Assembly (NCBI RefSeq): GCF_000499205.1 | Contig: NZ_AWUK01000004.1 | Coordinates: 62,001 to 126,000, forward strand | Source: Paenibacillus sp. MAEPY2 | Lineage (GTDB): Bacteria > Bacillota > Bacilli > Paenibacillales > Paenibacillaceae | Length of the DNA: 64,000 nt | Reading direction: 5' to 3' | Shown: one piece after another, positions 23,561-56,517 of the stretch | Position numbering within the stretch: the first letter of the stretch is position 1 | How the letters are laid out: every line of letters starts with the position of its first letter | Notes under the pieces: generated by a model | Databases searched by the model: none | What the model saw: the letters and a program-made list of their open reading frames with translations, nothing else | What the model was told of the DNA's origin: nothing | Made by a program: the position numbers and the translations under genes

Positions 23561-23784
23561 TAAAGTTGCACTCGATGAGTTAAGTTCAACTTAAAAAAAT
23601 TTGCACTGGCCTCTTCGCTGCCAGAACAACCTTACGATCGCTGTTATCCCCGGATTTTATTGATTCTCTTTTCCAAAGTGAAAATCCGGTGATAAAGGCG
23701 AACGCTTCGCTTCTACAGGTTATTTCTGACCTCTCCGTTATTGTGCAAACCAGAAGTTTAACTTAAAAAATGAGTCCAACTTTA
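23561..23784 (-). repeat. Self-complementary intergenic element, copy A
   Basis: About 224 bp between dgkA and cdd. The ends are imperfect inverted repeats: TAAAGTTGCACTC at the left matches TAAAGTTGGACTC read back from the right. Further in, AAGTTCAACTT pairs with AAGTTTAACTT, TTTGCAC (23600-23606) with GTGCAAA (23743-23749), and CAGAACAACCT with AGGTTATTTCTG. The core is a hairpin TTATCCCCGGATTTT/AAAATCCGGTGATAA and a small GCGAA/TTCGC hairpin, joined by CGATCGCTG. It is oriented toward cdd. Related copies occur at 49-50 kb and 56.3 kb. Confidence 0.8.
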
Positions 23785-23811
23785 CAATTAGTGTGTAATA
23801 TTAAAATCCAA

Positions 23812-24183
23812 TCAAAGCAATCCTAGCCAGCTCATCACTGGCTTGATGAAAACGATACACCCGATGATGACGGCGAACACCGCAGCCAGCAAAACTGCAC
23901 CGGCCGCGGTGTCCTTCGCCGCTTTTGCCAGCGGATGTATATGCGGATGCGCCAGATCTACAGCAGCTTCCACTGCTGTATTCATCAGCTCCGTCACAAG
24001 AACCAGAAATACGGCTGTCAGTACAAACATCCAGTCTGTTCTTGAAATCCCGAAAAAAAATCCGGCTGCACACATCAAAATGGCGACTCCTGTATGAACT
24101 CTTACATTCCTTTGAGTCCGCAGCCCGTATACGATTCCTTCCGCAGCATTGCGGAATACCATCCCCCAGGAGCGCCTTTTCAT
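23812..24183 (-). CDS. dgkA: Diacylglycerol/undecaprenol kinase family protein
   Basis: A 123-residue membrane protein with three helices. The family active-site segment is ELMNTAVEAAVDLAHPHIHPLAKAAKDTAAGAVLL, with the conserved Glu, Asn and Asp residues. Gram-positive members mainly phosphorylate undecaprenol, recycling the lipid carrier of wall synthesis. The stop of ybeY and this start share one base (TAATG), so translation is coupled. Confidence 0.93.
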   Translation of the reverse strand: MKRRSWGMVFRNAAEGIVYGLRTQRNVRVHTGVAILMCAAGFFFGISRTDWMFVLTAVFLVLVTELMNTAVEAAVDLAHPHIHPLAKAAKDTAAGAVLLAAVFAVIIGCIVFIKPVMSWLGLL

Positions 24184-24680
24184 TATCGTGTCAACCCGGC
24201 TTGAGCGAGTACCGCTTCCTGTTTGCCCATCATTTCGGCTTCACTGGCCTCATCCTGATGATCATATCCAAGCAGGTGCAAGAATCCATGAACAAACAGG
24301 AAGCCGAGCTCACGTTCAAATGAATGCCCATATTCTTCACTCTGCAGGATGGTCCGTGGAACCGAAATAATAATATCCCCCAGAACATCCGGCATTTCTT
24401 CCATTTCTTCATCCTCGTCCAGTTCGTAGATAATATCCAGTTCCTCATCCACAGTCTCATTCATTGCAAAAGACAATACATCCGTTGGACGATCAATACC
24501 GCGATAGTCACGGTTCAGCTCATGGATCTGTTCATCATCTACAAAAGTCAGAGCCACTTCCCCGTCCGCAACACCTTCTGCTTCTCCGGCAAGGTTCAGC
24601 AGTTGCTCCAGCATTTCAATTATCGGTTCAGTAATTTCTTTGTCCTGTTGTTCATTATTCCATGCTAGGTTAAGACTCAT
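24183..24680 (-). CDS. ybeY: rRNA maturation factor YbeY
   Basis: A 165-residue zinc endoribonuclease family protein involved in 16S rRNA 3'-end maturation and ribosome quality control. The zinc motif HGFLHLLGYDH lies near residue 125. The start is the ATG of MSLNLAWNNEQQ with AGGAG nine bases upstream; the ATG at 24704 has no ribosome site. An acidic stretch (ELDEDEEMEEMPD) is present before the zinc motif. It lies in the conserved yqfF-ybeY-dgkA order. Confidence 0.95.
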   Translation of the reverse strand: MSLNLAWNNEQQDKEITEPIIEMLEQLLNLAGEAEGVADGEVALTFVDDEQIHELNRDYRGIDRPTDVLSFAMNETVDEELDIIYELDEDEEMEEMPDVLGDIIISVPRTILQSEEYGHSFERELGFLFVHGFLHLLGYDHQDEASEAEMMGKQEAVLAQAGLTR

Positions 24681-24713
24681 TCTTTCATACTCCTGTCTTC
24701 TCATATTAGCGAA

Positions 24714-26963
24714 TCAACCCGCCTCAGGCGATGTTGGCTTCGGTTTCTTCATTTCCTCCGGATATTCAATCCTGGAGTGGAATATACCCATGACGGTTTC
24801 CTTAAGGGTCTTGGCAACGATGTCCAGTTCGCGCATCGTCAGATCACAGTCATTAAACTGATGATCGTCCAAGCGACCTTTAATTATTTTTTCGATCATG
24901 GATTCCACTTGTTCCACGGTAGGCTTACGCAAGGAACGAACTGCAGCTTCCACGCTGTCAGCAATACCAACAATTGCCGACTCCTTGGACTGGGCCTTGG
25001 GACCCGGATAACGGAAATCATCTTCAGTGAAATCAGGTTCCACCCCTGCTTCCTCGGCCTGACGCAGCGCTTTGTGATAGAAGTAATGCAGGAAGGTTGT
25101 ACCATGATGCTGCTCGGCAATGTCTCGAATAGGCCTTGGCAGCTTATAGTCCTTCTGCATCTCCACACCATCCCGTGCGTGAGCAACGATAATGGACTTG
25201 CTCAGCTTGGGATCAATCGAATCATGCGGATTTTCCATATTATTTTGATTTTCAATAAAATAAATGGGTCTTTTGGTTTTGCCAATATCATGGTAATACG
25301 AGCCGACCCGACATAACAAGCCGTTTGCACCAATTGCCTCCGCTGCCGCCTCTGACAGGTTTCCGACCATCACACTGTGGTGATATGTGCCGGGTGTCTC
25401 TGTTAGCAGTTTGCGCAATAGCGGATGATTGGGATTAGACAATTCCACCAGTTTCAGGGCAGACAAGATGCCAAACGAGGTTTCGAAAAACGGCATCAGC
25501 CCAATGACTAATATGGCGGTCAGTACGCCTCCAGCAAACGCAAATCCAATGCCATACAGCGTTGTCGTCCGGTTCCAGTCACTTGAGTCAATCAGAGCCA
25601 GCGTGAAGACCGCGATTGATCCGAACAGACACACCATAATGGCGCCTTTCAGGATCGTAGACCGCTGACTTGCCCGATGGGTGGCAAAGATCGCAACAAA
25701 CGATACCAACACCGCGAAGAAACCAAGTTCAAAGTCAAAAATCTGACCCTGATGTGTATTTAAAATAATGCTCGACAGCATCCCGATAATAATCGAACAG
25801 ACAAAGGCAAGTGATGTATCCAGCAGTAATGCAATTAACATTGCGCCTACGGCAACAGGGGCAAGAAAGCCTACATATGACTTCTCACTGGTCTGGAGTA
25901 TCGCTGTGACGTGCATAACCACAATGGTAATAATAAATATGAGAACAAGCATCAGCAGCTGAGCATTGTTATATTTGAAATGCGTTCCGCTGAATTGCTG
26001 AATATACATGAGAATCGCTGCCGACAACAGACAGGACAGCATAAGCAATCCAAGCTGAGGCCAATAGTTTACTTCGTTTTTCAGCAAATCGTTCTCGCCC
26101 AAAAGAGTGTACATCTCCGGGGTAATCATCTCACCCTTGGCAACGAGCGTATCACCTTGCTTGATAAAGACCGTTTGAGTATTCTCACGCGCCTGCACTT
26201 TGGCTTCTTTTGTACCCTCTTCATCGTAGAAGCGGTTCGACGTTACTACAAGACGTGCAAGCTCCTGTACAACCTCACGCTGTGTACGTTTGCTAAGGGA
26301 GCTCACACTCACCATCTCGGCCACTTTGGCACGAGCTGTTGTAGCCTCGCTAATCTGGTCGGTCATTAATCTGGAGACGATATCCCGCGCAACGGACTTC
26401 ATCTCCTGAATATCATCCGAAGTCAGACGTGAAATTTTGATATATGTTTCTTCCGGGATACGGTAGCTTTGCTCCTGTACCACATTTCTGATCTCTTCCA
26501 AAAGAGTTTCGGAGTATGTACCCGCTTTCCGGTTGTTGTTGATAAAATTGGACACAAAGTCTTTCTGGCGCTGCGGTATTTCATCACGATAGATGTCGAT
26601 CTTGTCCTGACTGGAAATCTGATCATCCTGATTCAGCCGATCAATACGATCGAGCAGCGTGGTCATCAGATTTTCGTTCCGCATCTGTACAATTTGAAAC
26701 ATCGGCTGCACACGTTCAGCGGCTTCTTCTTGCGCTTTTAGTGTAGCCTTCGTATTCGGAATCTGCATGGGCGCAGCAATATTCACTTCACTCCGTGTGC
26801 CTTCCTGAATATCATACCGCTCAGGGAGCAGTTTGGAAGCAAGACTCACGTAGAAAAGGATCACCAGAAACAAAAACAGAAGATAGCGTGCCCACACGCT
26901 ATACTTCCATCCTGTAGCTCTATTTTGAAAAGATTTGCCTTTTGACAGTTCCTTCGAGGTCAT
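24714..26963 (-). CDS. yqfF: HD family phosphohydrolase with 7TM domain (YqfF/PgpH)
   Basis: A 749-residue membrane protein. After an N-terminal anchor (about 28-45) comes a large extracytoplasmic 7TMR-HDED domain, then seven membrane helices (about 295-490). A cytoplasmic HD domain follows, with HHSVMVGNL, HDIGKTKRP and a later HH-x-D arrangement. Listeria PgpH, the studied member, hydrolyses cyclic di-AMP, so this is the likely substrate. It lies directly upstream of ybeY and after phoH, as in B. subtilis. Confidence 0.93.
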   Translation of the reverse strand: MTSKELSKGKSFQNRATGWKYSVWARYLLFLFLVILFYVSLASKLLPERYDIQEGTRSEVNIAAPMQIPNTKATLKAQEEAAERVQPMFQIVQMRNENLMTTLLDRIDRLNQDDQISSQDKIDIYRDEIPQRQKDFVSNFINNNRKAGTYSETLLEEIRNVVQEQSYRIPEETYIKISRLTSDDIQEMKSVARDIVSRLMTDQISEATTARAKVAEMVSVSSLSKRTQREVVQELARLVVTSNRFYDEEGTKEAKVQARENTQTVFIKQGDTLVAKGEMITPEMYTLLGENDLLKNEVNYWPQLGLLMLSCLLSAAILMYIQQFSGTHFKYNNAQLLMLVLIFIITIVVMHVTAILQTSEKSYVGFLAPVAVGAMLIALLLDTSLAFVCSIIIGMLSSIILNTHQGQIFDFELGFFAVLVSFVAIFATHRASQRSTILKGAIMVCLFGSIAVFTLALIDSSDWNRTTTLYGIGFAFAGGVLTAILVIGLMPFFETSFGILSALKLVELSNPNHPLLRKLLTETPGTYHHSVMVGNLSEAAAEAIGANGLLCRVGSYYHDIGKTKRPIYFIENQNNMENPHDSIDPKLSKSIIVAHARDGVEMQKDYKLPRPIRDIAEQHHGTTFLHYFYHKALRQAEEAGVEPDFTEDDFRYPGPKAQSKESAIVGIADSVEAAVRSLRKPTVEQVESMIEKIIKGRLDDHQFNDCDLTMRELDIVAKTLKETVMGIFHSRIEYPEEMKKPKPTSPEAG

Positions 26964-26978
26964 CGAGACAATCCCTTT

Positions 26979-27950
26979 CTATTCTTGATTTTCTGCGGCG
27001 TGATTATAGGCGACGATAATTTTCTGGACGAGGGAGTGCCGTACAACGTCTTGCTCGGCAAAATAGACAAATCCAATCTCTTCCACTTGCCCCAATATTG
27101 TATTTGCTTCCACAAGCCCCGACTTTTTGCCGCGCGGTAAATCAATTTGTGTCACGTCACCGGTAATGACCATTTTGGAACCAAAACCAAGACGGGTCAG
27201 AAACATTTTCATCTGTTCCGGTGTCGTATTCTGGGCTTCATCCAGGATAATAAACGAATCATCCAGCGTACGTCCCCGCATATAGGCTAGAGGTGCAATT
27301 TCGATCAATCCGCGCTCCAGTGCCTTGGCCGTCTGCTCTTGTCCCATAACGTCATACAAGGCGTCATACAGGGGCCGGAGATAAGGGTCAACCTTTTCCT
27401 GAAGATCACCAGGCAAGAAGCCAAGACTTTCTCCCGCTTCAACAGCAGGCCTTGTGAGCACGATCCGTTTGACGCTTCCTTCCTTGAGTGCTGCCACAGC
27501 TAGCACAACTGCAAGATACGTTTTACCTGTACCGGCAGGACCGATACCAAATACAACATCACGTTTTTTAATTGTAGTTACATAGTGTTTCTGTCCAATC
27601 GTCTTAACCCGGATCGGTTTACCACGGTAGGTCGTTGTAATCTCGCCTTTGAACAGATCCAGAAGCTGGTCTGCACGCAGTTCCTTTGCAAGCTCAATGG
27701 CATACTTAACGTCCCTTTCGGTTAACACATATCCGTTACGTACCAATTGCAACAACACATCAAATAATTGTTCAAGTGATTCCACATTTTGAATGTTGCC
27801 ATGAATCACAATCTCCGCTTCACGGGATGCGATCTGGGCGGGAATCTCGGATTCAATCAGTTTCAGAAAAATATCTTGGGGTCCAAAAAGAGATTGACCC
27901 TCTCCCGCACTTTGGAGGGAGATTCGTATGCTGCGTGTTTGCTCTGACAA
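26979..27950 (-). CDS. phoH: PhoH family ATPase (YbeZ-like)
   Basis: A 323-residue PhoH protein. The N-terminal ~110 residues include a KH-like part. The ATPase core shows Walker A GPAGTGKTYLAVV and Walker B FIILDEAQNTTPEQMK, followed by sensor GDVTQIDLP. Members associate with YbeY and RNA and are thought to have helicase-like activity. It is followed by yqfF and ybeY and preceded by yqfD with only six bases between them. Confidence 0.94.
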   Translation of the reverse strand: MSEQTRSIRISLQSAGEGQSLFGPQDIFLKLIESEIPAQIASREAEIVIHGNIQNVESLEQLFDVLLQLVRNGYVLTERDVKYAIELAKELRADQLLDLFKGEITTTYRGKPIRVKTIGQKHYVTTIKKRDVVFGIGPAGTGKTYLAVVLAVAALKEGSVKRIVLTRPAVEAGESLGFLPGDLQEKVDPYLRPLYDALYDVMGQEQTAKALERGLIEIAPLAYMRGRTLDDSFIILDEAQNTTPEQMKMFLTRLGFGSKMVITGDVTQIDLPRGKKSGLVEANTILGQVEEIGFVYFAEQDVVRHSLVQKIIVAYNHAAENQE

Positions 27951-27956
27951 ATAGCC

Positions 27957-29150
27957 TCATTCTCCTTGACTATGGACTAACGGAAGTTCTTCCGCAATGC
28001 TTTCTTCTACTTCAAACAATACTTTCATATAAACTTTACCATTCTCTTTCTTCTCATGCAAAATTTTTTCACTTAAAATTTTCGTTCCTTTGCCATTTTT
28101 GGCAATAATATCGTTTCTCGCTCCTTCCAATCCTTTCGTTCTAGCCCATTCAATCGTGTTTTTCTGCTCTTTTTCCTGTGTTTCCAAATCTTTCTCTGTC
28201 AGCCATCCCATGGGAAGTGTGAAGGATCTCCAGGTCAGCGGTTTATGATCACTTTCGGTATCAAATGAGGTGAAAGGCGTATTCCCGTATCCCCAGAGCT
28301 GAATCGCCCATTTCCCCAGTACAATGTAAAAACGTTCCTTGCTCTCCCCGGTCATCGTATTATGTTTTTGCACAAGGGGGACTTCGACCTGATACTCACG
28401 CCACACCAGTCCACGTACTTCCCCTTTGGCAACAATGGTTTTTGTATTCTCTTCATCTCCCAAAATACCGGATATCAGTACCTGTCCCTTCTTGACACGC
28501 ATGTCCTTCTGCACGACAGGGCGTCCCTGCTCCGCGTATATTTGAGTGATTACAGCGTCTGTTTTACTGACCAGATGTCTCGGGTTCAGCAGCGGTTCAC
28601 GCTTGGGCTGTGCTGACTCCACAACCTGGATGGTGATGGTTGTCCCTTCTTTGCTCACCCCAATCCAGGTTACATCCGGCAGAGCGAGTGCGAGCTGTCT
28701 GGAGAGCTTGTCCTGGCTTTGCAGTCGAAATGCCCACTGGAAGGGGTAAATGCCTTCTTTCTTTGCTGCCGCGAGCACTTCATCCGTGGGAATCGTCACA
28801 TTGCCTTTAACTTCTATATTCCAAACCATCGATGACAACGCAAACAGAGCTGCTATAAAAAACAGCATGCCGCCCAGAAAGAACTTCCTTCTCAATAAAC
28901 GGGCTGCAAAAAAAGGAAATCCACTCCGGTGTGTCACCTTTACACGGCAGCCTGTCCGTTTCAGCAAAGGACGCAGCCTAAAAAAATGCGGTAGCAGAAT
29001 ATACATTTCTGCCTTGCGCCCGTCATGGGCACGCAGGTCCCATACTTCCAGTCCCTGCTCTGCCACCGTGTTGATCAATGCTTCAATATCCCCCCCAGTG
29101 ACCGTGATTCGGACTGCTCCGCGCAGTTTGTACAGACTGGGCTGCTTCAT
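27957..29150 (-). CDS. yqfD: Sporulation protein YqfD
   Basis: A 397-residue YqfD family membrane protein needed for efficient sporulation. A single strong helix (FFLGGMLFFIAALFALSSMVW) lies near residues 90-112. The following region has the FtsQ/POTRA-like pattern VKGNVTIPTDEVLAAAKKEGI, and the rest is extracytoplasmic beta-rich. It overlaps yqfC by four bases (ATGA), so the two are coupled. Work on Clostridioides links YqfCD-type proteins to engulfment; the same role here is inferred. Confidence 0.92.
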   Translation of the reverse strand: MKQPSLYKLRGAVRITVTGGDIEALINTVAEQGLEVWDLRAHDGRKAEMYILLPHFFRLRPLLKRTGCRVKVTHRSGFPFFAARLLRRKFFLGGMLFFIAALFALSSMVWNIEVKGNVTIPTDEVLAAAKKEGIYPFQWAFRLQSQDKLSRQLALALPDVTWIGVSKEGTTITIQVVESAQPKREPLLNPRHLVSKTDAVITQIYAEQGRPVVQKDMRVKKGQVLISGILGDEENTKTIVAKGEVRGLVWREYQVEVPLVQKHNTMTGESKERFYIVLGKWAIQLWGYGNTPFTSFDTESDHKPLTWRSFTLPMGWLTEKDLETQEKEQKNTIEWARTKGLEGARNDIIAKNGKGTKILSEKILHEKKENGKVYMKVLFEVEESIAEELPLVHSQGE

Positions 29151-29440
29151 CCGTTCCCCTCCGCTCCATTCATATGAATATCCAGAATTGTTCCTTCAAC
29201 AGCCACTTCATCCGGCAAAATATTGCGAATCATCAGTTCAGTCCCTTTGATCTCCAGCTGGCCTTGGGAGAGAGCCAGAACGATGCGATCCGGTGTAAAA
29301 TGAATGACACCACGATGATTCTCTATATACAATTGCTTTGTGCCGATCAGGGTTAACCGTGGCATATCGTAAAGCACGTCCTGCGGCAGATCCAGAACTT
29401 CACTGGTCCATCTGCGCAGCTTGCGGCTGATCCGGGTCAT
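29147..29440 (-). CDS. yqfC: Sporulation protein YqfC
   Basis: A 97-residue YabP/YqfC family protein with the typical pattern LDLPQDVLYDMPRLTLIGTKQLYIENHRGVI followed by an IRNILPDE segment. The family occurs in spore-formers and partners YqfD. The four-base overlap with yqfD shows they are translated together. The ATG is preceded by GGGGGAAG. Confidence 0.9.
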   Translation of the reverse strand: MTRISRKLRRWTSEVLDLPQDVLYDMPRLTLIGTKQLYIENHRGVIHFTPDRIVLALSQGQLEIKGTELMIRNILPDEVAVEGTILDIHMNGAEGNG

Positions 29441-29550
29441 TCGAAGGTCTTCCCCCTTCCTCTACAGTTCAACTTATGCGCAGATTCATGAAATTATGAA
29501 AACTACGGACCGTATAAGATGTGAAATGTGAGAAAAAAGATGATGAACGC

Positions 29551-29593
29551 AAAAAAAAGCCGTCTCCGGCATATTGCTCACCAGAAACGGCTC
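29551..29593 (-). terminator. Terminator after the FloA-partner gene
   Basis: AGCCGTCTCCGG pairs with CCAGAAACGGCT with a few mismatches. Read on the minus strand the stem is followed by eight T. It ends the nfeD-floA unit. Confidence 0.85.
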
Positions 29594-29618
29594 TATTCCT
29601 TCTACATCACTTAGATTG

Positions 29619-30239
29619 TTACAGTTTCCCTCTTGAACCGAAAGGCTGCTTGGATCGGGGAGCACCCAATACTTCTGCCCATAAAACACCCGTACGAATG
29701 TCTTCCGGACGAAGCTGGGAATTTCCCGATTCACTTGATTCCACTTGATCCCAACTGGAATCAGCCACAACAGGTTTGTTTGAAGAAGAAAAGCGATTTA
29801 GCCTTTCTTGAATCAGACGTTGTTGCTTTTCGAATTCTTTCTTTTGTTGGTCAAGCGAACGTTCCATCTCACCACTAAAGTTTCGGCTACCTACTTCATC
29901 TGAAGGACGTGAGGAAGCTTGTGGTCCTGAATACGGCTGATCATAACGACCTTCATCATACTGGTTCTCATACGGTTCATCGTACTGGTTCTCGTAAGGT
30001 TCATCATAACGAGTTTCACCAGCAGCTTCAGTGCTGGCAGTTTTCTTTGGAGAGGTCTGCGCTGGTGAACGGTCGGACTGATCGGAGTCACCACTGCCTC
30101 CAAAGGTCGGCATTCCATTGTTCTGACGCTTTTTGTTTGGATCAGATGATTTAGCTGCTTTTCCAAGAAAAGAAAAGAGCGCAAAACCGATGACAGCCAC
30201 GATATACAGATTATTAAAAATCCATTCGAATAGGCCCAT
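29619..30239 (-). CDS. Membrane-anchored low-complexity protein downstream of floA
   Basis: A 206-residue protein with one N-terminal membrane helix (FNNLYIVAVIGFALFSFLG), then a long hydrophilic tail. The tail has tandem copies of YDEPYENQ (about 78-100), a short coiled coil (DQQKKEFEKQQRLIQERLNRF) and a C-terminal block LRPEDIRTGVLWAEVLGAPR that looks conserved. I do not recognise a named family. It follows floA by 13 bases and shares its transcript, so a role at flotillin membrane microdomains is a fair guess. Confidence 0.7.
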   Translation of the reverse strand: MGLFEWIFNNLYIVAVIGFALFSFLGKAAKSSDPNKKRQNNGMPTFGGSGDSDQSDRSPAQTSPKKTASTEAAGETRYDEPYENQYDEPYENQYDEGRYDQPYSGPQASSRPSDEVGSRNFSGEMERSLDQQKKEFEKQQRLIQERLNRFSSSNKPVVADSSWDQVESSESGNSQLRPEDIRTGVLWAEVLGAPRSKQPFGSRGKL

Positions 30240-30252
30240 ATATACTCACCGC

Positions 30253-31263: not shown

Positions 31264-31430
31264 AGTATAAATTCCTCCATTTTCGTTTTGATTTTGATTT
31301 TGGCAAAAATTATATGAACATACATTCATAAATCTGCTACTAAATTAAAGATTACACCACTTCGCAGGCACCTTCAGCATAGTGGTTATGTACGGTTGCC
31401 TAAGCCTGAGCAGCTTGGCAACTGAGCGGA

Positions 31431-33076: not shown

Positions 33077-33088
33077 CATTGATTTGCT

Positions 33089-33532: not shown

Positions 33533-33547
33533 GTAGTTAAAATCCTC

Positions 33548-47885: not shown

Positions 47886-47925
47886 CAAAAAGCCCGCAGC
47901 TTATCCAAACTGTGGGCTTTTGCTT
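47886..47925 (-). terminator. Terminator after rlmI
   Basis: AAAAGCCCGCAG pairs with CTGTGGGCTTTT. On the minus strand TTTTTGC follows, just past the rlmI stop at 47960. Confidence 0.85.
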
Positions 47926-47959
47926 AAATGTATGTCCGATTTAGATTGAAATCGCTCAA

Positions 47960-49336
47960 TTAATTCTTTTTGCTGCGTACTTCGAAGATGGCAAATTTCA
48001 GATAGTGACCTTCGTCTACACCCAAAATTTGGGGATGATCCTTACCAGCTGCTTTCCAGTCGATCAGACGCAGCACTTTGCCTGCGTCTTCGGCTGCATC
48101 TGCGATTGTTTCCAGAAAGAGATCCGGACGCATATGGTAAGAACAGCTTGCCGTTACCAGATACCCGCCCTCATTCACCAGCTTCATTCCTTGCAGATTG
48201 ATGTCCTTATATCCACGGCATGCGCCTTTGACTGCTGATTTCGTTTTGGCAAACGCTGGCGGATCCAGGATGACCACATCAAAAGTTTTACCACCGGCTG
48301 CAAGCGCTTTGGAAGTATCCACTTTCCGTTCACCAGCACGAGCACGTACATTACGATCATCGAGTCCTTTGACCTGCTCACGCAAGTATTGGAATGCATC
48401 CGCAACGACAAATTCGACCCGGTCAGTGAAACCGTTCAGCTCTACGTTGGTTCGTGCACTTTCAATTGCATGCTCTGAGATATCAAGGCATGTTACTTTT
48501 TTAGCTCCATATTTGCAGGCGTTCAATGTGAAGCTGCCTGTGTGAGAGAAACATTCCAGCACAGTGGCTCCGTCCCAATAAGGGAACGTCACAACCTTGC
48601 CGCTTTTATTGACAGGAAGTAACTGCTGCGTACCATCCTGCTCGGTCTGTTGGAGCGTAATGCCACTCTTGTAACCCCAGCCCTTCATAAGCGGTTCAAT
48701 GGCTGCACGATTCTCGCGCTGGTCGAAGAAATACCCTGTTTTCTGACCCTCCACGATATCTACCTTAATGAGCAAGCCGTTTTCCGTTACCGTGACATGA
48801 CGCGGGCAATCCCCATACAGTGGCCCTTTCGTCTGCTCCAAGCCTTCCAGCTCCCGAATAGACACATCACTGCGTTCATAGATGCCTTCCGGCTGCATCA
48901 CTTCAATTAGAGCTTGTACAATCGCTTCGCGGCAACGGTCCATGCCGAGTGTGAGCAATTGAACAACAAGGATGCTACCAAAACGGTCAACGATTAGTCC
49001 TGGCAGAAAATCAGCTTCGCCATAAACGAGACGGTATGCCTCACCATCCTGGATAAAACGCTCCCGGTGGCGCAAGCAATCGCGGAAACGCGCTGCAAAA
49101 AACGCGGTATCCATTTGTTCAAACTCCAGAGGTTGATAGGCCACGACTCTAACTGTGATTTGAGATGAAGGATTATAGTATCCTGTCGCGAGATAGCGGC
49201 CTTGATGATTCAAAACATTGACCAGATCTCCCGGCTCGGGGTTTCCTTCAACAGAGGCGATTTCATTGTTATATATCCATGGATGTGCATGTTCAAGCCG
49301 CTTTTTGCGACTGCGTTCCAGTGTAACTGATGGCAA
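47960..49336 (-). CDS. rlmI: Class I SAM-dependent rRNA methyltransferase (RlmI/YccW family)
   Basis: A 458-residue RlmI-type enzyme expected to make 5-methylcytosine in 23S rRNA. The N-terminal PUA domain (VTLERSRKKRLEHAHPWIYNNEIASVEG) is followed by an RlmI-like domain and a Rossmann methyltransferase with VLECFSHTGSFTLNA and VILDPPAFAKTK. The start is TTG (49336), eight bases after GGAAGTG. A short insertion near residues 330-350 (VRARAGERKVDTSKALAAGG) is unusual. The exact target base is inferred. A repeat element ends 28 bases upstream. Confidence 0.85.
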   Translation of the reverse strand: MPSVTLERSRKKRLEHAHPWIYNNEIASVEGNPEPGDLVNVLNHQGRYLATGYYNPSSQITVRVVAYQPLEFEQMDTAFFAARFRDCLRHRERFIQDGEAYRLVYGEADFLPGLIVDRFGSILVVQLLTLGMDRCREAIVQALIEVMQPEGIYERSDVSIRELEGLEQTKGPLYGDCPRHVTVTENGLLIKVDIVEGQKTGYFFDQRENRAAIEPLMKGWGYKSGITLQQTEQDGTQQLLPVNKSGKVVTFPYWDGATVLECFSHTGSFTLNACKYGAKKVTCLDISEHAIESARTNVELNGFTDRVEFVVADAFQYLREQVKGLDDRNVRARAGERKVDTSKALAAGGKTFDVVILDPPAFAKTKSAVKGACRGYKDINLQGMKLVNEGGYLVTASCSYHMRPDLFLETIADAAEDAGKVLRLIDWKAAGKDHPQILGVDEGHYLKFAIFEVRSKKN

Positions 49337-49363
49337 GATAGATCCACTTCCTTTAATTTATTG

Positions 49364-49552
49364 TTCAAAAGATAGACTTGGTGCAAAGGAGACCGCTTCG
49401 GGGATGGATTGGACTTTCGATCGCTGTTGTCTCCAGATTTTTCTGATTCCCTTTCTCAAAAGGGAAAATCCGGAGACAAAGGCGAACGCTTCTCTTCTTC
49501 AGTTCCAATTCCATCTCCTCCGCTCCATTGCAGAATCTCCGTATCTTTCGAA
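49364..49552 (-). repeat. Self-complementary intergenic element, copy B
   Basis: About 189 bp upstream of rlmI. Its ends TTCAAAAGATA (49364-49374) and TATCTTTCGAA (49542-49552) are complementary at 10 of 11 positions. Inward, GGATGGATTGGACT pairs with AGTTCCAATTCCATC. The core hairpin is TTGTCTCC/GGAGACAA instead of TTATCCCC/GGGGATAA seen in copy C, so both arms changed together. Confidence 0.78.
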
Positions 49553-49562
49553 TAGGAGCACG

Positions 49563-49886
49563 GTAATTTCGGTGATCGCTTCGGGGATGGTTCGGAGACT
49601 TTCGATCGCTGTTGCATTGTACAGATGAATCTCAAATTTCACACTTACCACTACGATGACAGAACAACCTTCCGATCGCTGTTATCCCCAGATTTTTTTG
49701 ACTCCTTTTCTCCAAAGGGAAAATCCGGGGATAAAGGCGAGCGCTTCGCTTCTTCAGGTTTTTTCTGTCCTCTTCGTTATCGTGTGAATCTTTAATTCAA
49801 CCCCTATTACAGCGAACGCTTCGCTTCTACAGCTCCAATTCCATCCCCTCCGCTCCGTTGCAAAATCTCCGTATCTTTCGAATAGG
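49563..49886. repeat. Element copy D/E, split by copy C
   Basis: The left part (49563-49617, with CGATCGCTGTTG) matches the left half of copy B. The right part (49812-49886, GCGAACGCTTCGC to CTTTCGAATAGG) matches the right half of copy B. The two halves are separated exactly by copy C, and the central hairpin is missing. It therefore reads as an older copy interrupted by a younger one. Confidence 0.65.
49618..49811. repeat. Self-complementary intergenic element, copy C (nested)
   Basis: About 194 bp, bounded by TGTA and TACA. Arms: TTCACAC with GTGTGAA, GACAGAACAACCT with AGGTTTTTTCTGTC, and the core hairpin TTATCCCC/GGGGATAA, plus the GCGA/TCGC small hairpin. It lies inside copy D/E. The rest of the 692-base gap between rlmI and the plus-strand gene at 50029 holds only copies B and D/E and about 140 bases without a clear feature. 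Confidence 0.75.
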
Positions 49887-50028
49887 GGGGGTAATTTGGG
49901 CGACCCTTAAGATAACTTATCGGTCTTTCAAATGCTATTGTCTCCAGAATTCCGTTAGCCTGTCATGGTTGTCCTTGCTTTCTCATAGGATGAGATAAGG
50001 ACATGCACGGAAGGAATGATGTTAACTC

Positions 50029-51030
50029 ATGTTCAGAGATGTTGTGCTGCCCCTATTATATGGGCTTCTTATCTTTTTTGGTGGGATGAAGCTGATGGAA
50101 ACAGCCTTGCAACGGATGGCCGGGCCAATGCTGGCTGGTTTGCTGGGCCGGGCCACCTCTGCACCCTGGAAAGGCATGGCTTTCAGTGCAGGCGCTACGG
50201 CCCTGCTGCAAAGCAGTACGGCTGTCACGGTGCTAACCATTGGACTGGCAAACGCCAGATTGATTACCTATGGACGCACACTTGGCATTATTCTTGGCAC
50301 GAACATCGGGACGTGCCTGACCACCGAGCTGGTCGGACTGCAGATCGGACGAGTCTCCCTGCCTCTGCTTGCCCTGTCCCTGACGGGCTGGGCCGTCTTT
50401 GTTGTGCTTGGTGAACGAAATCAGTTGGCTCCTGAGCGCACACGCCGGACGCTGTTTACCATGCAATACAGCTTTCTTGCGTCCGCCGGATTTGCCCTCG
50501 TCATGACAGGCATTCAAGTGATGCAATCCATTGCCGTACCGCTGCGGAGTATGGGCGTATTCCAGTGGTTCCTGGACCGCTCAGCCGACAGCTTGTGGTG
50601 GGGCTTTCTGGCAGGTGCCTGTCTGACGGCGCTCATTCATAGCAGCGCAGCCGTTATCAGCATGGCCATTACGCTTGCAGCCACAGGAGTACTGCCTGTG
50701 GAGATCGGCATTGCCATTGTGATCGGGTCGAACGTGGGGACCTGTATCACCGCCGTGATTGCTGCCGCTGGCGGAGCATCCGCAGGCAAATTTGTCGCAG
50801 CCTCCCATGTTGTATTAAACATAGCGGGGGCGCTGCTGTTTATGCCGCTGATCGGCCAGCTGCATGCAGCTTCGGCCTGGCTGTCAGCGGATAACGGGGC
50901 ACAGATTGCGCATGCCCAGACCCTTTTTAACGTCACCAGTTCACTGCTTGCCTTGCCGTTCTGTTACTTGCCGATTTGGCACAAAAAACCACCGGTCTCC
51001 ACCCCAGTGGCGAAGTCACCCGTGGCCTGA
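50029..51030 (+). CDS. Na/Pi cotransporter family protein (YqeW-like)
   Basis: A 333-residue membrane protein with about eight helices made of two inverted Na/Pi cotransporter (PF02690) halves. Each half has the glutamine/serine motif: GATALLQSSTAVTVLTIGLA and ALIHSSAAVISMAITLA, each followed by a GTNIGTC or GSNVGTC motif. It lacks the C-terminal PhoU domain of many homologues. It is probably a sodium-coupled phosphate carrier. The ribosome site (GGAAGGA) is somewhat far from the ATG. It is isolated on the plus strand after the repeat cluster. Confidence 0.85.
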   Translation: MFRDVVLPLLYGLLIFFGGMKLMETALQRMAGPMLAGLLGRATSAPWKGMAFSAGATALLQSSTAVTVLTIGLANARLITYGRTLGIILGTNIGTCLTTELVGLQIGRVSLPLLALSLTGWAVFVVLGERNQLAPERTRRTLFTMQYSFLASAGFALVMTGIQVMQSIAVPLRSMGVFQWFLDRSADSLWWGFLAGACLTALIHSSAAVISMAITLAATGVLPVEIGIAIVIGSNVGTCITAVIAAAGGASAGKFVAASHVVLNIAGALLFMPLIGQLHAASAWLSADNGAQIAHAQTLFNVTSSLLALPFCYLPIWHKKPPVSTPVAKSPVA

Positions 51031-51086
51031 TGTTTAGAACTCTCTCGACAATCAGCAGCGATACATCATCACTCAAAAGAAAACCG

Positions 51087-51521
51087 CTATACGGTAATGC
51101 CTAATTTGTTCAGCGCCACACGTAAAATGTCATCGTTATTATCATATCCACTATGCTGCTGTCTGGACCAAGCTTCTTCCGGAGTGTACCAATCCACACC
51201 TTTGATTTCTTCAATCTGAGGCTGCAGATCGCCGCTTTCCGCTTCAACGAGATAATAATGAACTTCCTTGTCCACTGGACCAAACTCAGCATGCTGATAC
51301 GTATAGGCGATGATATCGACGGGTTCTATAATGCGGCCGACCATGCCCGTCTCTTCCAGAATCTCACGAAGCGCGGTCTGTTCCACCGTTTCTCCGTCTT
51401 CCATCTTGCCCTTGGCGAGAGTTGTTTTGCCATAGCGATCTACAATCAGTTGAATTTGAAGCTTTCCGTCTTCTCCCGTGCGGTAGACGACTCCGCCTGC
51501 CGAAATTTCTTTTCTGTTCAT
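51087..51521 (-). CDS. NUDIX hydrolase
   Basis: A 144-residue NUDIX protein. The Nudix box is GKMEDGETVEQTALREILEETGM, matching GX5EX7REUXEEXGU. The start is the ATG of MNRKEISAGGVVYR with GGGGAG six bases upstream; the ATG five codons earlier overlaps that site. Substrate is unknown; AP4A- or (d)NTP-type pyrophosphatase is common for this size. It is followed at the 3' side by the convergent YqeW-like gene. Confidence 0.88.
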   Translation of the reverse strand: MNRKEISAGGVVYRTGEDGKLQIQLIVDRYGKTTLAKGKMEDGETVEQTALREILEETGMVGRIIEPVDIIAYTYQHAEFGPVDKEVHYYLVEAESGDLQPQIEEIKGVDWYTPEEAWSRQQHSGYDNNDDILRVALNKLGITV

Positions 51522-51632
51522 GTTGCTCTCCCCCATTACGGAATTGTCTTCATCTTTTTTTGGAAAAAGAAGGACCTCATCTCCACGGGTACGCTCCCCA
51601 AGGAAATGAAATCCTTGTTTCTGACGCCTCGA

Positions 51633-52979
51633 TTACATCGCTGCGGACTTGAGATTTTCCTCCAACACACGAACCAGCGTAGCCTGGCTTTCATTCACAC
51701 CCGCCTCGGTCACTTTGACACGGCACACTTTGCCAACCATATCCATGGAACCATCAAAGACCAGCTGAATGTAGTTGTCACTGTAGCCATGCAGTTTACC
51801 ACTGCCCTCACGGCCCTTGGCTTCACCTTCAGGAATGACATCCAGTACCTGCCCCACAAACTGCTTGGCGTATGCCAGTTGCATTTGCTCAGACAGATCA
51901 ATCAGTTCATGCACACGTGCGTTTTTGACTTCCTCATCCACCTGATCCTCCATACGTGCTGCTGGCGTTCCAGTTCGCTTGGAATATGGAAATACGTGCA
52001 TTTCGGAAAAACCGATTTTCTTCATCAGGTTATAGCCGTTACGGAACATCTCATCCGTTTCACCCGGGAACCCAACAATAACGTCAGTTGTAATCGCTAC
52101 ATCCGGCATCGCTTCCCGAATACGAAGCATTTTATTGTAAAACTCTTCGGTCGTATATTTACGGCGCATGCGTTTCAGTACAGTATCATCGCCCGCTTGC
52201 AGCGGAATGTGGAAGTGACGTACAAGTTTGTCTGAACGTTTGATCACATCCAACATCCGATCGTCAATCTGGCTCGCTTCAATCGAGCTGATCCGAATAC
52301 GCTCCAGGCCTTCTACTTTATCCAAGTCCCATAACAAATCCGTCAGATCATAGTTCTCCATGTCATCGCCGTATCCACCGGTATGAATGCCTGTCAGGAC
52401 AATTTCCTTGTATCCGGCGTGCACGAGCTGATGAGCCTGTTGGATAATGCTGTTTGCTTCCCGGCTACGGGACAGTCCACGCGACCACGGAATAATGCAG
52501 AATGTACAGAAGTTATTGCAGCCATCCTGAATTTTCAGGAAAGCACGGGTACGATCAGCAAAATCCGGTACATCCATCTCTTCAAATACCCGCGTTTTCA
52601 TAATGTTACGGACCGCGTTGACAGGCTGACGTGATTCCTGAATTTCTTTGACATATGGCAAGATTTTGTCCCGATCCTGTGTACCGATGACAAGATCCAC
52701 CCCAGGGATGTCCAGAATTTCTGCCGGAGAAGTTTGCGCATAACAGCCTGTAACGGCTACAATCGCATCCGGGTTGCGCCGAATGGCACGACGGATAATC
52801 TGGCGGCTCTTTTTGTCGCCGGTATTGGTTACTGTACAAGTATTAATCAAGTATACATCCGCTGTCTGTTCGTCAAAGTCTACCTGATCGTATCCTTCGT
52901 TTTTGAACAATTGCCAAATCGCCTCTGTATCGTAAAAATTAACTTTGCAGCCTAAGGTGTAAAACGCCACGGATGGCAT
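51633..52979 (-). CDS. mtaB: tRNA t6A37 methylthiotransferase MtaB
   Basis: A 448-residue radical-SAM enzyme that adds a methylthio group to t6A37 of tRNA. Three N-terminal cysteines for one Fe-S cluster are in LGCKVN, NTCTVTN and VTGCYAQ. The radical-SAM cluster is CNNFCTFCIIPWSRG (about 150-165). A TRAM RNA-binding domain closes the chain. It follows rsmE with two bases between them, the yqeU-yqeV order of B. subtilis. Confidence 0.95.
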   Translation of the reverse strand: MPSVAFYTLGCKVNFYDTEAIWQLFKNEGYDQVDFDEQTADVYLINTCTVTNTGDKKSRQIIRRAIRRNPDAIVAVTGCYAQTSPAEILDIPGVDLVIGTQDRDKILPYVKEIQESRQPVNAVRNIMKTRVFEEMDVPDFADRTRAFLKIQDGCNNFCTFCIIPWSRGLSRSREANSIIQQAHQLVHAGYKEIVLTGIHTGGYGDDMENYDLTDLLWDLDKVEGLERIRISSIEASQIDDRMLDVIKRSDKLVRHFHIPLQAGDDTVLKRMRRKYTTEEFYNKMLRIREAMPDVAITTDVIVGFPGETDEMFRNGYNLMKKIGFSEMHVFPYSKRTGTPAARMEDQVDEEVKNARVHELIDLSEQMQLAYAKQFVGQVLDVIPEGEAKGREGSGKLHGYSDNYIQLVFDGSMDMVGKVCRVKVTEAGVNESQATLVRVLEENLKSAAM

Positions 52980-52981
52980 AA

Positions 52982-53746
52982 TTACATTCCCCCCATTTCT
53001 CCGGATTCATATAAGACACAAGTTAGCGCCGCCATTCCGGCCGTCTCGGCCCGCAAGATGCGTTTGCCCAGTCCAACGGATACAGCACCCGCCTGATCGG
53101 CTTCCATCGTTTCTTTCTCGGAAAATCCGCCCTCAGGTCCAACAACGATCAACACTTCAGCGCTCGCACCAGGTGCAAGCTGCTCTACAAACGGCTTCAA
53201 TGCGTCTCTTAACTGCTTGCCGTTTTCCTTTTCATAACAATAACATACCAGACTGTAGCCCTCAAAAGAAGATAGCAGCCCTTTCCAGGAAAGTGGCTGC
53301 TCGACGGATGGAATGCGGTTCCGATGGCTTTGTTCAGCGGCTTCCTTGGCGATTTTCCGCCACCGCTCCAACCGTTTGCCTTCTTTCTTGGCATCATATT
53401 GCACAATCGTACGCTCAGACAGGAAAGGAACAAAGGAAACTGCTCCGATCTCTGTACATCTTTGAATGACCGTCTCCATCTTATCGCCTTTGGGCAAGCT
53501 TTGAGCCACGGTTACACGTATACGTGCTTCATGGTCCATTTCGAGCGGTTCCACAATATTCGCTGTTACTTGCTGGGCCTCGATGCTTTCAATCTCCACC
53601 AAAGCTTCTTTGGAGTTTCCGTCACTGACAATCAGTTTGTCTCCAGGTTTACCACGCATCACTTTGCCGATATGGCGCGCATCATCACCCGTGATGACCA
53701 CGGAATGTTCATTAAACTGTTCTGCAGATACAAAATAACGCTGCAT
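52982..53746 (-). CDS. rsmE: 16S rRNA (uracil1498-N3)-methyltransferase RsmE
   Basis: A 254-residue SPOUT methyltransferase that makes m3U1498 in the 30S decoding centre. It has an N-terminal PUA-like domain (MQRYFVSAEQF, DDARHIGKVMRGKPGDKL) and a C-terminal knot with IVVGPEGGFSEKE and VSVGLGKRILRAETAG. The start is the ATG at 53746 with GGTGG nine bases upstream; the frame continues 30 codons without similarity. It lies directly upstream of mtaB. Confidence 0.94.
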   Translation of the reverse strand: MQRYFVSAEQFNEHSVVITGDDARHIGKVMRGKPGDKLIVSDGNSKEALVEIESIEAQQVTANIVEPLEMDHEARIRVTVAQSLPKGDKMETVIQRCTEIGAVSFVPFLSERTIVQYDAKKEGKRLERWRKIAKEAAEQSHRNRIPSVEQPLSWKGLLSSFEGYSLVCYCYEKENGKQLRDALKPFVEQLAPGASAEVLIVVGPEGGFSEKETMEADQAGAVSVGLGKRILRAETAGMAALTCVLYESGEMGGM

Positions 53747-53884
53747 AAGTCTGTCCACCCATTCTATCCTGTTATGACTGGAATTCACCCCGCCTAAAGG
53801 CAGGCGTGAATCCAATCGCCACAGATGATCATACAACTTTTATGTGCTTCTGACCAGTATTTCAGTCCTATACACTATACGTTT

Positions 53885-54562
53885 CTAACGATATAAACCG
53901 ATGATTAACCTCGCCAGATCTACATACATATTCTGAGCAAATTGATATAAAGGTTGAATCGTCGCATTTTGCAATGGAGGAATGACAAGGATCAAAAGGA
54001 AAATAAATATGGACCATTGCTCTACCCCTTGCAGCTTCCGGCTGATGGAAGGCGGCAGAATATCCTCCAGAATTCGATATCCGTCCAATGGAGGCAACGG
54101 AATCAGGTTAAAGAGAAACAGGAAAAAGTTCGTTAGGTTAAATATGGAGAAAAACATGGAAATTGCTGTAAGCAAACGCTCATTTTCAATGCTACCCAGT
54201 GCTCCCGAACCAACCAACGAAGCATAGATGATTGTACCGATGATCGCCAGCAGCAAATTGCTTACAGGCCCAGCAACGGATACTATGACGCCCATTAGTC
54301 TAGGTTTGTCAAAATTGGCCCGATTGACCGGAACCGGACGGGCCCAGCCGAAACCGGCAATAACGAGCAGCAGTACACCGAACAAGTCAAAGTGTACGAC
54401 CGGATTCAGTGTAACCCGACCTAGAAGCTTGGCCGTCGGATCACCAAATTTGTTGGCAAAATACGCATGAGAGAATTCATGCACCGTAAAAGCAATCAGG
54501 ATGGTCAGCAGGAAAAACGGCAGTTGATCCAGCGGATAACGAAAGAACGAGTTCAAATCCAT
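53885..54562 (-). CDS. Site-2 protease family (M50) membrane protein
   Basis: A 225-residue membrane protein with five to six helices. The zinc motif HEFSHAYFA lies near residue 28, and the second site (NLIPLPPLDGYRIL) near 150. It is the short YwhC/Rv-type M50 form with no PDZ domain. Such proteases cut membrane-embedded segments of other proteins; substrates are unknown. It sits three bases downstream of prmA and may be coupled to it. Confidence 0.88.
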   Translation of the reverse strand: MDLNSFFRYPLDQLPFFLLTILIAFTVHEFSHAYFANKFGDPTAKLLGRVTLNPVVHFDLFGVLLLVIAGFGWARPVPVNRANFDKPRLMGVIVSVAGPVSNLLLAIIGTIIYASLVGSGALGSIENERLLTAISMFFSIFNLTNFFLFLFNLIPLPPLDGYRILEDILPPSISRKLQGVEQWSIFIFLLILVIPPLQNATIQPLYQFAQNMYVDLARLIIGLYR

Positions 54563-54565
54563 CGG

Positions 54566-55531
54566 TTACCTCTTTCTGGCTACAAACGCGATCCAGTCCT
54601 CATCGCGGTGCACCGAACTGATTTCGAAGCCGGAAGCAACGAGCGCATCATGGACAATCTGTTCTTTATTTTTCCAGATGCCTGAAGTAATATAAACGCC
54701 GCCTGACTCAAGTGCATGGTAGACATCATCCACAAACATCATAATAACCTCGGCCAAAATATTGGCAACGATAACTTTCACCGGAAGCTTCACGCCCAGA
54801 GCAGGGTCCTGACTACCCAGAACCGACAGTAGATCACTTTCTTTAACGGTAATTTGTTGTTCCAGCCCATTCAGTTCCACATTTTCCTTGGCACTGATTA
54901 CGGCAACAGGATCGAGGTCCAGCGCCAATACATGTTTTGCACCAAGGTGGATCGCTCCGATGGCCAAAATGCCAGAGCCTGTGCCTACGTCAATGACTTC
55001 CTCACCACCCTGAATGACCGATTCCAGTGTGCGCAGACATAGCGAAGTGGTTGGATGTGTTCCCGTACCAAACGCCATGCCTGGATCAAGCTCAATTATT
55101 TTCTCATTCGGGCTTTCCGGTGTATACTCTTCCCATGTCGGTTTAATGGTTAGACGTTCCGAGACACGCACCGGTTTGAAGTATTGTTTCCAGGCATTCG
55201 CCCAGTCATTTTCATCCACTGTTCGAGTCTCAAAACGTACCTCACCCGTTTGGATATCGAATTCGGAAAGCTGTTCAATTCGTGGACTTACTTCCAGTTG
55301 CAATGCCTCCATATCCGTACCTTCGGAGAAATATCCTTTAATGACGGCAAAGCCTTCAGGAATATCATTCAAAGGAAACTCGTACAACTCGCCATACGTC
55401 GTATCCCGTTTTTTATTTAAAGTACCGGACTCTTCAATCGAGACCCCTCCAGCACCCGCTTCATGTAAAAAATTCGAAATCATCTCCACAGCTTCTTCTG
55501 TGGTATGTATAGTTAGTTCATGCCATAACAT
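54566..55531 (-). CDS. prmA: Ribosomal protein L11 methyltransferase PrmA
   Basis: A 321-residue PrmA that trimethylates L11. An N-terminal substrate-recognition domain (LWHELTIHTTEEAVEMISNFLHEAGAGGVSIE) is followed by a class I methyltransferase with DVGTGSGILAIGAIHLGA and the NILA motif (VIVANILAEVI). The start is the ATG at 55531 with GAGGAGG 11 bases upstream; the longer frame to 55558 covers the ribosome site. It belongs to the dnaJ-prmA-rsmE-mtaB order, here with an M50 protease and stress genes inserted. Confidence 0.95.
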   Translation of the reverse strand: MLWHELTIHTTEEAVEMISNFLHEAGAGGVSIEESGTLNKKRDTTYGELYEFPLNDIPEGFAVIKGYFSEGTDMEALQLEVSPRIEQLSEFDIQTGEVRFETRTVDENDWANAWKQYFKPVRVSERLTIKPTWEEYTPESPNEKIIELDPGMAFGTGTHPTTSLCLRTLESVIQGGEEVIDVGTGSGILAIGAIHLGAKHVLALDLDPVAVISAKENVELNGLEQQITVKESDLLSVLGSQDPALGVKLPVKVIVANILAEVIMMFVDDVYHALESGGVYITSGIWKNKEQIVHDALVASGFEISSVHRDEDWIAFVARKR

Positions 55532-55624
55532 ACTTCTTTTTTCCTCCTCATTTTTCAAACATCCCCACCATTGTACTACACAAGCGAGCAGGAGTACAAA
55601 ACCGCGGCAGTAAAAGAAACAACA

Positions 55625-55668
55625 AAAACAGGATACCCGCAGCCTTCACTGCTCGAATACCCTGTTTT
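55625..55668 (-). terminator. Terminator after the 128-residue stress-type gene
   Basis: AAAACAGG and CCTGTTTT form the base of a stem, with inner GCAG/CTGC pairs. The minus-strand tail is TTTTTGTTTG. It lies about 25 bases past the stop at 55695. Confidence 0.8.
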
Positions 55669-55694
55669 AATTCTGACATGACTTGATTAACTTG

Positions 55695-56087
55695 TTAATA
55701 AAAGCGTCCACCGTTCTGCGTAATCATCTCTGCAGCTTGGGGGAGAGAGTCACTGGATACGGATACGGTCAGCAAGATTTCTTGCTTGGACCTGCCTTCA
55801 GAGCCAGCTTCCGTATCGTCATACACCTGTCCACCCGACAACACCTCGGTCTCATCGCTAATGAGCGAAAGTACATTCAGCTCACCACTGAATCCCCCAA
55901 TCACAGCCATGGTCGAGTTATCCGTACCCTCAGACGCTCCTGAATCCATTGAAGACGACGAGCCATTCAGACTCTCGATACTCAGTTGGTTCGGGTGCAG
56001 CAATTCCAGCGCTCTGCGTGCAGATTCAGCCTCGGACCAGCTCATAAATACCGCTTCGATAATTACTACAGAGCGATCTTCAGTCAT
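55695..56087 (-). CDS. General-stress-17M-like small protein, paralogue 1
   Basis: A 130-residue protein. The start is the ATG of MTEDRSVVIIEAVF, which overlaps the end of the YfhD-like gene by eight bases. The N-terminal part (SWSEAESARRALELLHPNQLSIESL) and C-terminal part (ILLTVSVSSDSLPQAAEMITQNGGRFY) match the pattern of the gene at 56529: an alpha-beta segment, a Ser/Gly-rich linker, then LLTVxV and a terminal xxGG. This looks like a general-stress protein 17M-type fold. Function is unknown. Confidence 0.6.
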   Translation of the reverse strand: MTEDRSVVIIEAVFMSWSEAESARRALELLHPNQLSIESLNGSSSSMDSGASEGTDNSTMAVIGGFSGELNVLSLISDETEVLSGGQVYDDTEAGSEGRSKQEILLTVSVSSDSLPQAAEMITQNGGRFY

Positions 56088-56259
56088 GAATCTCCCGACC
56101 CTGACGACGATCGGCTGCTTCACTGCGGCGCAAAGCCTCTATATCTTCATGATCCGCAGCTTCGGCACTGAATTCTACATCCTCATTTTTGGCGGACTGC
56201 ATTCGCTTCATCTTTTCCGTTTTCGTCAAAATCTTGCCTGGACGTTCATGTTCTGCCAT
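56080..56259 (-). CDS. YfhD-like small acidic protein
   Basis: A 59-residue protein not long enough for usual gene finders. It begins MAEHERPGKILTKTEKMKRM and contains DVEFSAEAADHEDIEALRR, a segment typical of YfhD-type small proteins of spore-formers. The ATG at 56259 has GGAGGAG eight bases upstream. It shares an eight-base overlap (ATGACTGA) with the next gene. A repeat element ends 28 bases upstream of its start. Confidence 0.7.
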   Translation of the reverse strand: MAEHERPGKILTKTEKMKRMQSAKNEDVEFSAEAADHEDIEALRRSEAADRRQGREIHD

Positions 56260-56286
56260 CGTTATGCTCCTCCTTCAAATTAGGTT

Positions 56287-56517
56287 CTATATAAAATGAA
56301 CTAATACTTGTTACACTGTACCACTCCGATTGTAGTACCATCCTCCGATCGCTGTTATCCCCAGATTTCTTCATCTCCCTTCTTAAAGGGAGAAATCCGG
56401 TGATAGCATATGCTTCCGAAGTAGCTTTCTTACGAAAGCTTTCAGGCGAACGCTTCGCTTCTTCAGATTGGTTCTACACCCTCCGTTAAAGTGTAATTCA
56501 TTGTCCATCTTATATAG
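56287..56517 (-). repeat. Self-complementary intergenic element, copy F
   Basis: About 231 bp. The ends CTATATAAAATGAAC and (read back) CTATATAAGATGGAC match, then TTACACT pairs with AGTGTAA, and TGTAGTACCA with TGGTTCTACA. The core is CGATCGCTGTTATCCCC with ATCCGGTGATA. An extra ~38-bp stretch (56406-56443) holding the hairpin AGCTTTC/GAAAGCT is inserted before GGCGAACGCTTCGC. It is oriented toward the YfhD-like gene. Confidence 0.78.

Follow-up and report, generated by a model that had tools for sequence, protein, structure and literature searches.

The 64,000-nucleotide stretch of the Paenibacillus sp. MAEPY2 genome analysed here (hereafter the window) carries several copies of an imperfectly palindromic, non-coding repeat of about 185–231 bp. 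We favour, with moderate confidence, the interpretation that this family is an ERIC/bcr-like mobile palindrome of the Paenibacillales that is kept as a folded segment of mRNA leaders and operon spacers, where it would probably act in cis on the processing or stability of the mRNA. An earlier note on this DNA had offered a folded RNA and a palindromic mobile unit as alternatives; both find support, from the mobility of the family and from double base changes across copies, species and genera.

Architecture and fold of the repeat

The earlier note had joined five copies (A, B, C, D/E and F) into one family, and all the motifs that it ascribed to them were present where it had placed them; A, B, C and F are intact, and D/E is a fifth copy that is split by the nested copy C. 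A covariance model (R1; 151 positions, 34 pairs) was built from alignment A1, which comprises 33 copies of the same genome and leaves out four copies with an extra hairpin as well as truncated copies. Its cmsearch matches to the intact copies lie at 49637-49788 (C, 180.4 bits), 23599-23749 (A, 172.7 bits), 49379-49534 (B, 112.9 bits) and 56309-56497 (F, 88.6 bits), with E-values from 2e-47 to 5e-22. All four are on the plus strand, accompanied by four weaker minus-strand matches that are shadows of these palindromes; throughout this work the elements are read on the minus strand of the window, and all the features listed below by coordinate are placed on that strand.

Compared with dinucleotide shuffles, elements A (23561..23784), B (49364..49552), C (49618..49811) and F (56287..56517) have far better folds (z = −5.5, −4.0, −4.3 and −5.5, respectively). 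The fold is rod-like, with an outer stem of free sequence, an internal loop, conserved inner stems and a small side hairpin, and gene calls extend over the core of just one copy in a set of 36 and one in a set of 60, each of them a weak call. Most members have a symmetric CGNAG/CGNAG internal loop; among 112 copies of the genus its C, G, A and G are conserved at 96, 99, 97 and 99% on one side and at 90, 97, 96 and 94% on the other, the middle base being free on both sides. Antiparallel CGNAG strands may form a symmetric loop with sheared G–A pairs.

The outer stems TTTGCAC/GTGCAAA (A), TTCACAC/GTGTGAA (C) and TTACACT/AGTGTAA (F) had been quoted correctly, and so had the inner-stem covariation of TTGTCTCC/GGAGACAA versus TTATCCCC/GGGGATAA, at which element A has one mismatch. 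The proposal that the fold rather than the sequence is kept holds for the pairing, with outer arms that vary freely, but fails for the core, where the sequence is kept as well (mean column identity 82% in the 33 copies of A1). The termini are inverted repeats, yet they differ between copies and are not conserved terminal inverted repeats.

Element B is a diverged unit, here called B-type, whereas C is of the main type and sits inside the apical hairpin of D/E. D (49563..49617) is one half of a second B-type unit interrupted by C, as indicated by direct repeats and by an uninterrupted second unit in the relative G015, and E (49812..49886) is the other half, with 92% identity to positions 49482-49556 of B and further evidence from relatives. 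Element F includes an extra hairpin module of 39 nt (56406..56444), recognized from its sequence and from a comparison of G016, which has the module, with G015, which lacks it in an otherwise similar element.

Covariation across copies, species and genera

In A1, double changes occur at 12 of the 34 pairs and amount to 36 cells, against 6.1 ± 2.1 in shuffled alignments and 0 to 4 when the pairing partner was slid. An alignment of 120 distinct rows fitted to the model had 268 double-change cells versus 41 shuffled and 17–56 slid. Changes were also mapped on a FastTree phylogeny of a MAFFT alignment of 112 non-redundant main-type copies (from 157), which gave 50 double events from one Watson–Crick pair to another, at 29 pairs, versus 0–2 for slid partners; a null of 100 simulated sets with independent columns had a mean of 6.3 and a maximum of 13 such events. 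Across genera, alignment A5 (29 sequences picked by hand, 24 out of 45 loci inspected in other genera and five from the MAEPY2 genome) has double changes at 28 of the 34 pairs with 95% of cells paired, and its 183 double-change cells compare with 44 shuffled and 28–52 slid.

The structure as a whole is therefore supported and single pairs are not, because the summed tree events far exceed their null while a per-pair test in the manner of R-scape was nearly empty. The earlier note had proposed to build a covariance model and run R-scape on it, and had named a lack of supported covariation as the result that would speak against its claim; pair by pair the outcome came close to that lack (one and zero significant pairs), but the summed double events, far above their controls, and the wider alignment did not.

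Mobility of the family and turnover at its sites

Comparison of related genomes shows the family to be mobile, with insertion at new sites, nesting of one copy in another and mosaic copies. The clearest case is the insertion L002, which is missing in all ten of the nearest relatives as ranked by one gene, five further relatives being ambiguous at the site. Its target heptamer, ATAGATA, is single in eight of the ten, altered in G042 and missing from G015 through a small deletion. When filled, the site has ATAGATA on both sides of a 185-bp insert; it can also be read as a 188-bp unit whose inverted ends match, flanked by ATAG. No general target duplication was visible in 82 flank pairs.

In the comparison with related strains for empty sites that the earlier note had suggested, two of the sites in the window also vary among 18 relatives. 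Site A is filled in 14, short or empty in three and was not located in one, and G035 apparently retains part of the outer arm there; site F is filled in 12 and empty in six; and the B/C site has at least one model match in 17 of the 18. By eye, the B/C site holds a single B-type unit in G073 and G057, whereas G015 has two such units and G021 and G070 have three. G000, G016 and G058 carry a main-type element within the apical hairpin there, and G056 and G042 have chimeras. At the F site (56287-56517) close relatives carry two different element types, and in some the 39-nt hairpin module is present. This suggests that copies convert or replace one another. At the L017 site, also examined by eye in ten relatives, two match, four have the opposite orientation, three are truncated and one is a remnant. 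Since relatives hold differing types and orientations at the F and L017 sites, sites persist while their contents turn over.

In the spacer equivalent to L017, three relatives (L165, L167 and L168, in G056, G042 and G050) have several hundred other bases, with inverted CTAACGAATCTGA/TCAGATTCGTTAG-like motifs, in place of part of the element; this stretch looks like a second, unrelated palindromic repeat. In one contig region of the MAEPY2 genome, the neighbouring elements L025 and L028 each lie near a short repeat with AACAAAAGATTAAGAA and AATCTTTTGTT, possibly a terminator or a further small repeat.

A Y1/RAYT transposase was considered as the mover, with the search confined to Y1 transposases, and is unsupported: PF01797 occurs in 10 of 20 genomes, and the element was found in none of 19 fetched transposase loci.

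Orientation relative to neighbouring genes

The elements, read on the minus strand, tend to run with the genes around them. Among 36 copies of the MAEPY2 genome, 35 have both neighbours called by a gene caller written for this analysis, and 23 of these are co-directional with both, two are opposite to both and ten are mixed (p = 2e-5). In four single-contig genomes, 60 high-scoring copies gave 45 in the direction of both genes, four opposite to both, ten mixed and one with a neighbour missing (p = 8e-10), and the selection of high-scoring loci, some of them mutual orthologues, makes these p-values optimistic. Pooled, 68 copies run with both genes and six against both; in the 68 co-directional cases the core lies 20–70 nt from the start of the downstream gene in 47 and 20–70 nt from the end of the upstream gene in 30. 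In other genera, 45 of 53 fetched loci were examined: 30 run with both genes, 4 run against both, 10 are mixed and 1 is incomplete.

Replication strand was rejected as the cause of this orientation. With the origin assumed at coordinate 1, 10 of the 13 elements that oppose replication still run with the downstream gene, against 26% expected from gene strand (p = 1.5e-4), so that orientation follows genes and not replication.

The strand on which the fold is probably kept

Wobble pairs offer a test of strand, because RNA tolerates G–U but not A–C, and on the opposite strand the two swap. In a control on RNase P (21 sequences of the genus), 207 cells were GU and none AC. A first tally by hand of 33 copies of the repeat gave 4 GU versus 16 AC on the plus strand; cell tallies of further alignments weakened this in the mixed set A2 (46 GU versus 57 AC) and held in A3 (10 versus 33), and the analysis was later redone as tree events. 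At pairs predicted on the minus strand, changes from Watson–Crick to GU numbered 52 versus 14 to AC, compared with 169 versus 171 at slid pairs (Fisher p = 1e-5), which are only a partial control for transcription-linked mutation bias. GU events thus exceed AC events at true and not at slid pairs; with the weaker results at other pairs, given below, we take this as moderate evidence that the fold is selected as a minus-strand RNA.

Distribution across the Paenibacillales

A single-query DNA search of the MAEPY2 genome gave at least 52 matches, with 40 of 141 candidates scored. On contig C10 the model finds seven elements in 400 kb, opposite-strand shadows excluded, a density that extrapolates to about 130 copies per 7.47-Mb genome. 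All 75 genomes of the genus sample had matches, ranging from one (G014) to at least 41. At E <= 1e-4, matches occurred in 160 of 197 genomes and 13 of 19 genera of a family sample and in 145 of 198 genomes and 26 of 43 genera of an order sample; these two samples overlap, and the model searches were confined to Paenibacillales. In a genome from another genus, 150 candidates were scored and 130 of them matched.

A 20-base core pattern was found in at least 117 stretches of the named genome collection, and 77 of the 80 listed stretches are Paenibacillus records. Single exact 20-base core matches outside the order, L389, L410 (Flavobacterium) and L421 (Aminicenantes), may be due to chance. Plasmid records gave one partial match, in a 2.7-Mb Paenibacillus replicon, and phage records gave no match to the element. 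Fifteen IMG/VR predicted viral stretches (L072-L086) carry the core pattern and may be prophage borders or phage-carried copies.

Leaders before icd and leuA

An element homologue precedes the NADP isocitrate dehydrogenase gene icd in eight (L261-L267, L270) and leuA in eight (L268, L272, L274-L279) of ten low-copy genomes belonging to a genus labelled g42, the two genes being assigned by both Pfam and NCBIfam. These leaders have kept the fold and lost the CGNAG loop, which in genera other than g42 is present in 16 of 17 sequences on one side and 13 of 17 on the other. As G302 has six other weak matches, G316 one more copy and G294 (counted to g42) 39 matches, the repeat still persists in the genus as a whole.

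Genes next to the elements in the window

The gene neighbours described here lie on the minus strand and, for the cdd-like, dgkA-like and PUA/methyltransferase genes, are assigned by Pfam. Element A occupies the spacer between an upstream dgkA-like gene and a downstream cdd-like gene of the cytidine deaminase family (23120..23539; PF00383, E = 6e-17) and is co-directional with both. Element B lies upstream, as do C, D and E, of a gene that joins a PUA_3 domain to an S-adenosylmethionine-dependent methyltransferase domain (47960..49336; PF17785, E = 4e-24; PF10672, E = 5e-14); we call it RlmI-like, the NCBIfam RlmI models matching it below their cut-offs. Element F is followed by a gene for a YfhD-like small protein (56080..56259, starting at 56259; PF14151, E = 2e-9) and preceded by a 122-aa gene for which Pfam gives no match at E <= 1e-5.

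Interpretation and alternatives

In the mechanism that we favour, the palindrome would insert at new sites as a non-autonomous DNA repeat, insertions in the opposite orientation would mostly be lost, and copies in leaders and spacers would survive mainly in one orientation. Such a copy would be transcribed within the mRNA as a long folded segment and may act in cis on the processing, stability or spacing of the mRNA segments that it separates; an effect on processing or stability is to be expected by analogy with ERIC in Yersinia and with bcr3.

A number of results weigh against this interpretation. The per-pair G-test against the tree null found one significant pair in a mixed set of 141 sequences and none in the main-type set. 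The wobble signal is weaker at the 21 pairs found from both strands (25 GU versus 10 AC; slid 130 versus 126; p = 0.03) and absent at pairs predicted on the plus strand (34 GU versus 49 AC), among which three apical pairs hold 37 of the 49 AC events. Orientation p-values from the four genomes are optimistic, as said above; the bias is weaker in other genera when icd and leuA orthologues are set aside (14 same, 4 opposite, 10 mixed and 1 incomplete; n = 29), and a sign test on which neighbour is nearer was not significant (39 of 68, p = 0.27). Masking of the Shine–Dalgarno sequence found no support as a cause of orientation, the predicted exposure in 26 loci being unchanged on removal or inversion of the element (p = 0.94 and 0.35). 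L002 sits between convergent genes, outside any leader. Finally, the CGNAG loop is present in none of seven g42 sequences on either side, and its absence there slightly lowered our confidence both in the favoured interpretation and in the transposable leader RNA considered below.

A purely selfish DNA palindrome is a serious rival, if a rather doubtful one. The fold would then matter as DNA, as a hairpin or cruciform for a transposase, or the arms would be kept alike by template switching or gene conversion, and the orientation would result from the loss of harmful insertions. Such a palindrome agrees with the genus alignment A2, in which alternative Watson–Crick cells number 265 versus the 46 GU and 57 AC given above, with mosaics and allele swaps at one site that suggest conversion or recombination, and with the position of the newest insertion in a convergent spacer. 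What tells against it is the excess of GU over AC tree events on one strand at true and not slid pairs, with the limits given above, together with the survival of the fold across genera, including before icd and leuA, despite large sequence turnover. At the other extreme, the repeat might be a transposable leader RNA that moves as DNA and is kept for a cis-acting sense RNA, possibly with a general factor at CGNAG/CGNAG, which would place about a hundred unrelated operons per genome under one post-transcriptional control; low-copy g42 genomes would then retain little but the icd and leuA leaders, with the fold and without the loop. We regard this as improbable.

We think it less probable again that the family is a mobile regulon, in which a dedicated trans-acting factor would bind the CGNAG/CGNAG RNA loop and bring many housekeeping operons under one signal. 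Conservation of the loop on both sides within the genus, and in most sequences of other genera outside g42, is what such a factor would lead one to see; its absence from g42 means that the icd and leuA leaders give no support, the downstream genes in the MAEPY2 genome look unrelated by their mostly tentative names, the binding factor is hypothetical and the loop could be purely structural. An intrinsic terminator or attenuator, a metabolite riboswitch or another known class of RNA is very improbable, even though some copies are leaders of biosynthetic genes and a stretch of seven T comes after element A on the minus strand. At gathering score, Rfam matched only RNase P in the window and not the element, and at 49300-49950 with E up to 10 it gave sub-threshold matches only, none of them credible. 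Only 5 of 185 copies, A included, have six consecutive T in the 20 nt that follow the core, and no terminator-like site was found in three element regions by a scan that allows loops of 3–8 nt only. A promoter within the element was likewise rejected, with one promoter-like site per region, about the level of shuffled sequence.

The combination of mobility, gene-directed orientation, order-wide retention of the fold and leftover leaders before icd and leuA raises this family above another entry among repeats. Its copies, orthologous sites, empty sites and orientation data suffice to ask whether small bacterial repeats are parasites or working parts of mRNA, and two tools to address it are at hand in the covariance model and the strand-specific wobble test. 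A missing feature would also be added to the genome annotation of the Paenibacillales.

Comparison with known repeats

The family appears to be new, although its kind is known, because Rfam has no match to it and because no description of such a repeat in Paenibacillus was found in the literature searched, which was mostly open-access and covered at the level of listings and abstracts. REP and REPIN sequences are high-copy intergenic palindromes. They go with RAYT, whereas the Paenibacillales repeat showed no link to Y1 transposases in the 20 genomes and 19 loci given above.

Like NEMIS/Correia, YPAL, RUP and other MITE-like repeats as described (PMC2229807), the family is small and non-autonomous, with stem-loop transcripts reported for those repeats and target duplications for several of them; YPAL resembles it further in having empty sites and internal inverted repeats (PMC2229807). 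Most MITE-like repeats are described as having defined terminal inverted repeats (PMC2229807), whereas in the Paenibacillales repeat the core is fixed and it is the termini that vary most.

ERIC (also IRU or RU-1; enterobacteria, 127 bp) is likewise a non-coding, mobile-type repeat of intergenic regions whose transcript forms a stem-loop, and in Yersinia it is described as co-transcribed with both neighbours and as having an orientation-dependent effect on the stability of the upstream transcript (PMC2229807). It belongs to another phylum, and the Paenibacillales family differs from it in the CGNAG/CGNAG loop of most members, the side hairpin, the free outer stem and the tandem B-type units; the comparison is by description, and no relation is claimed.

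The bcr1-bcr18 repeats of the Bacillus cereus group, also compared by description, measure 100–400 bp, often lie in untranslated regions (UTRs) and operon spacers, and reach an average of 39 copies for bcr1 (PMC3446304, PMC6542083). Transcription of bcr repeats within UTRs and operon spacers is reported (PMC3446304); bcr10 and bcr18 are predicted RNA elements, and a correlation with mRNA half-life is described for bcr3 (PMC3446304, PMC6542083). According to its description, bcr1 is confined to the B. cereus group. The mobility of bcr repeats is tied to a TTTAT motif (PMC3446304, PMC6542083), and TTTAT also stands at the arm ends of many copies of the Paenibacillales repeat.

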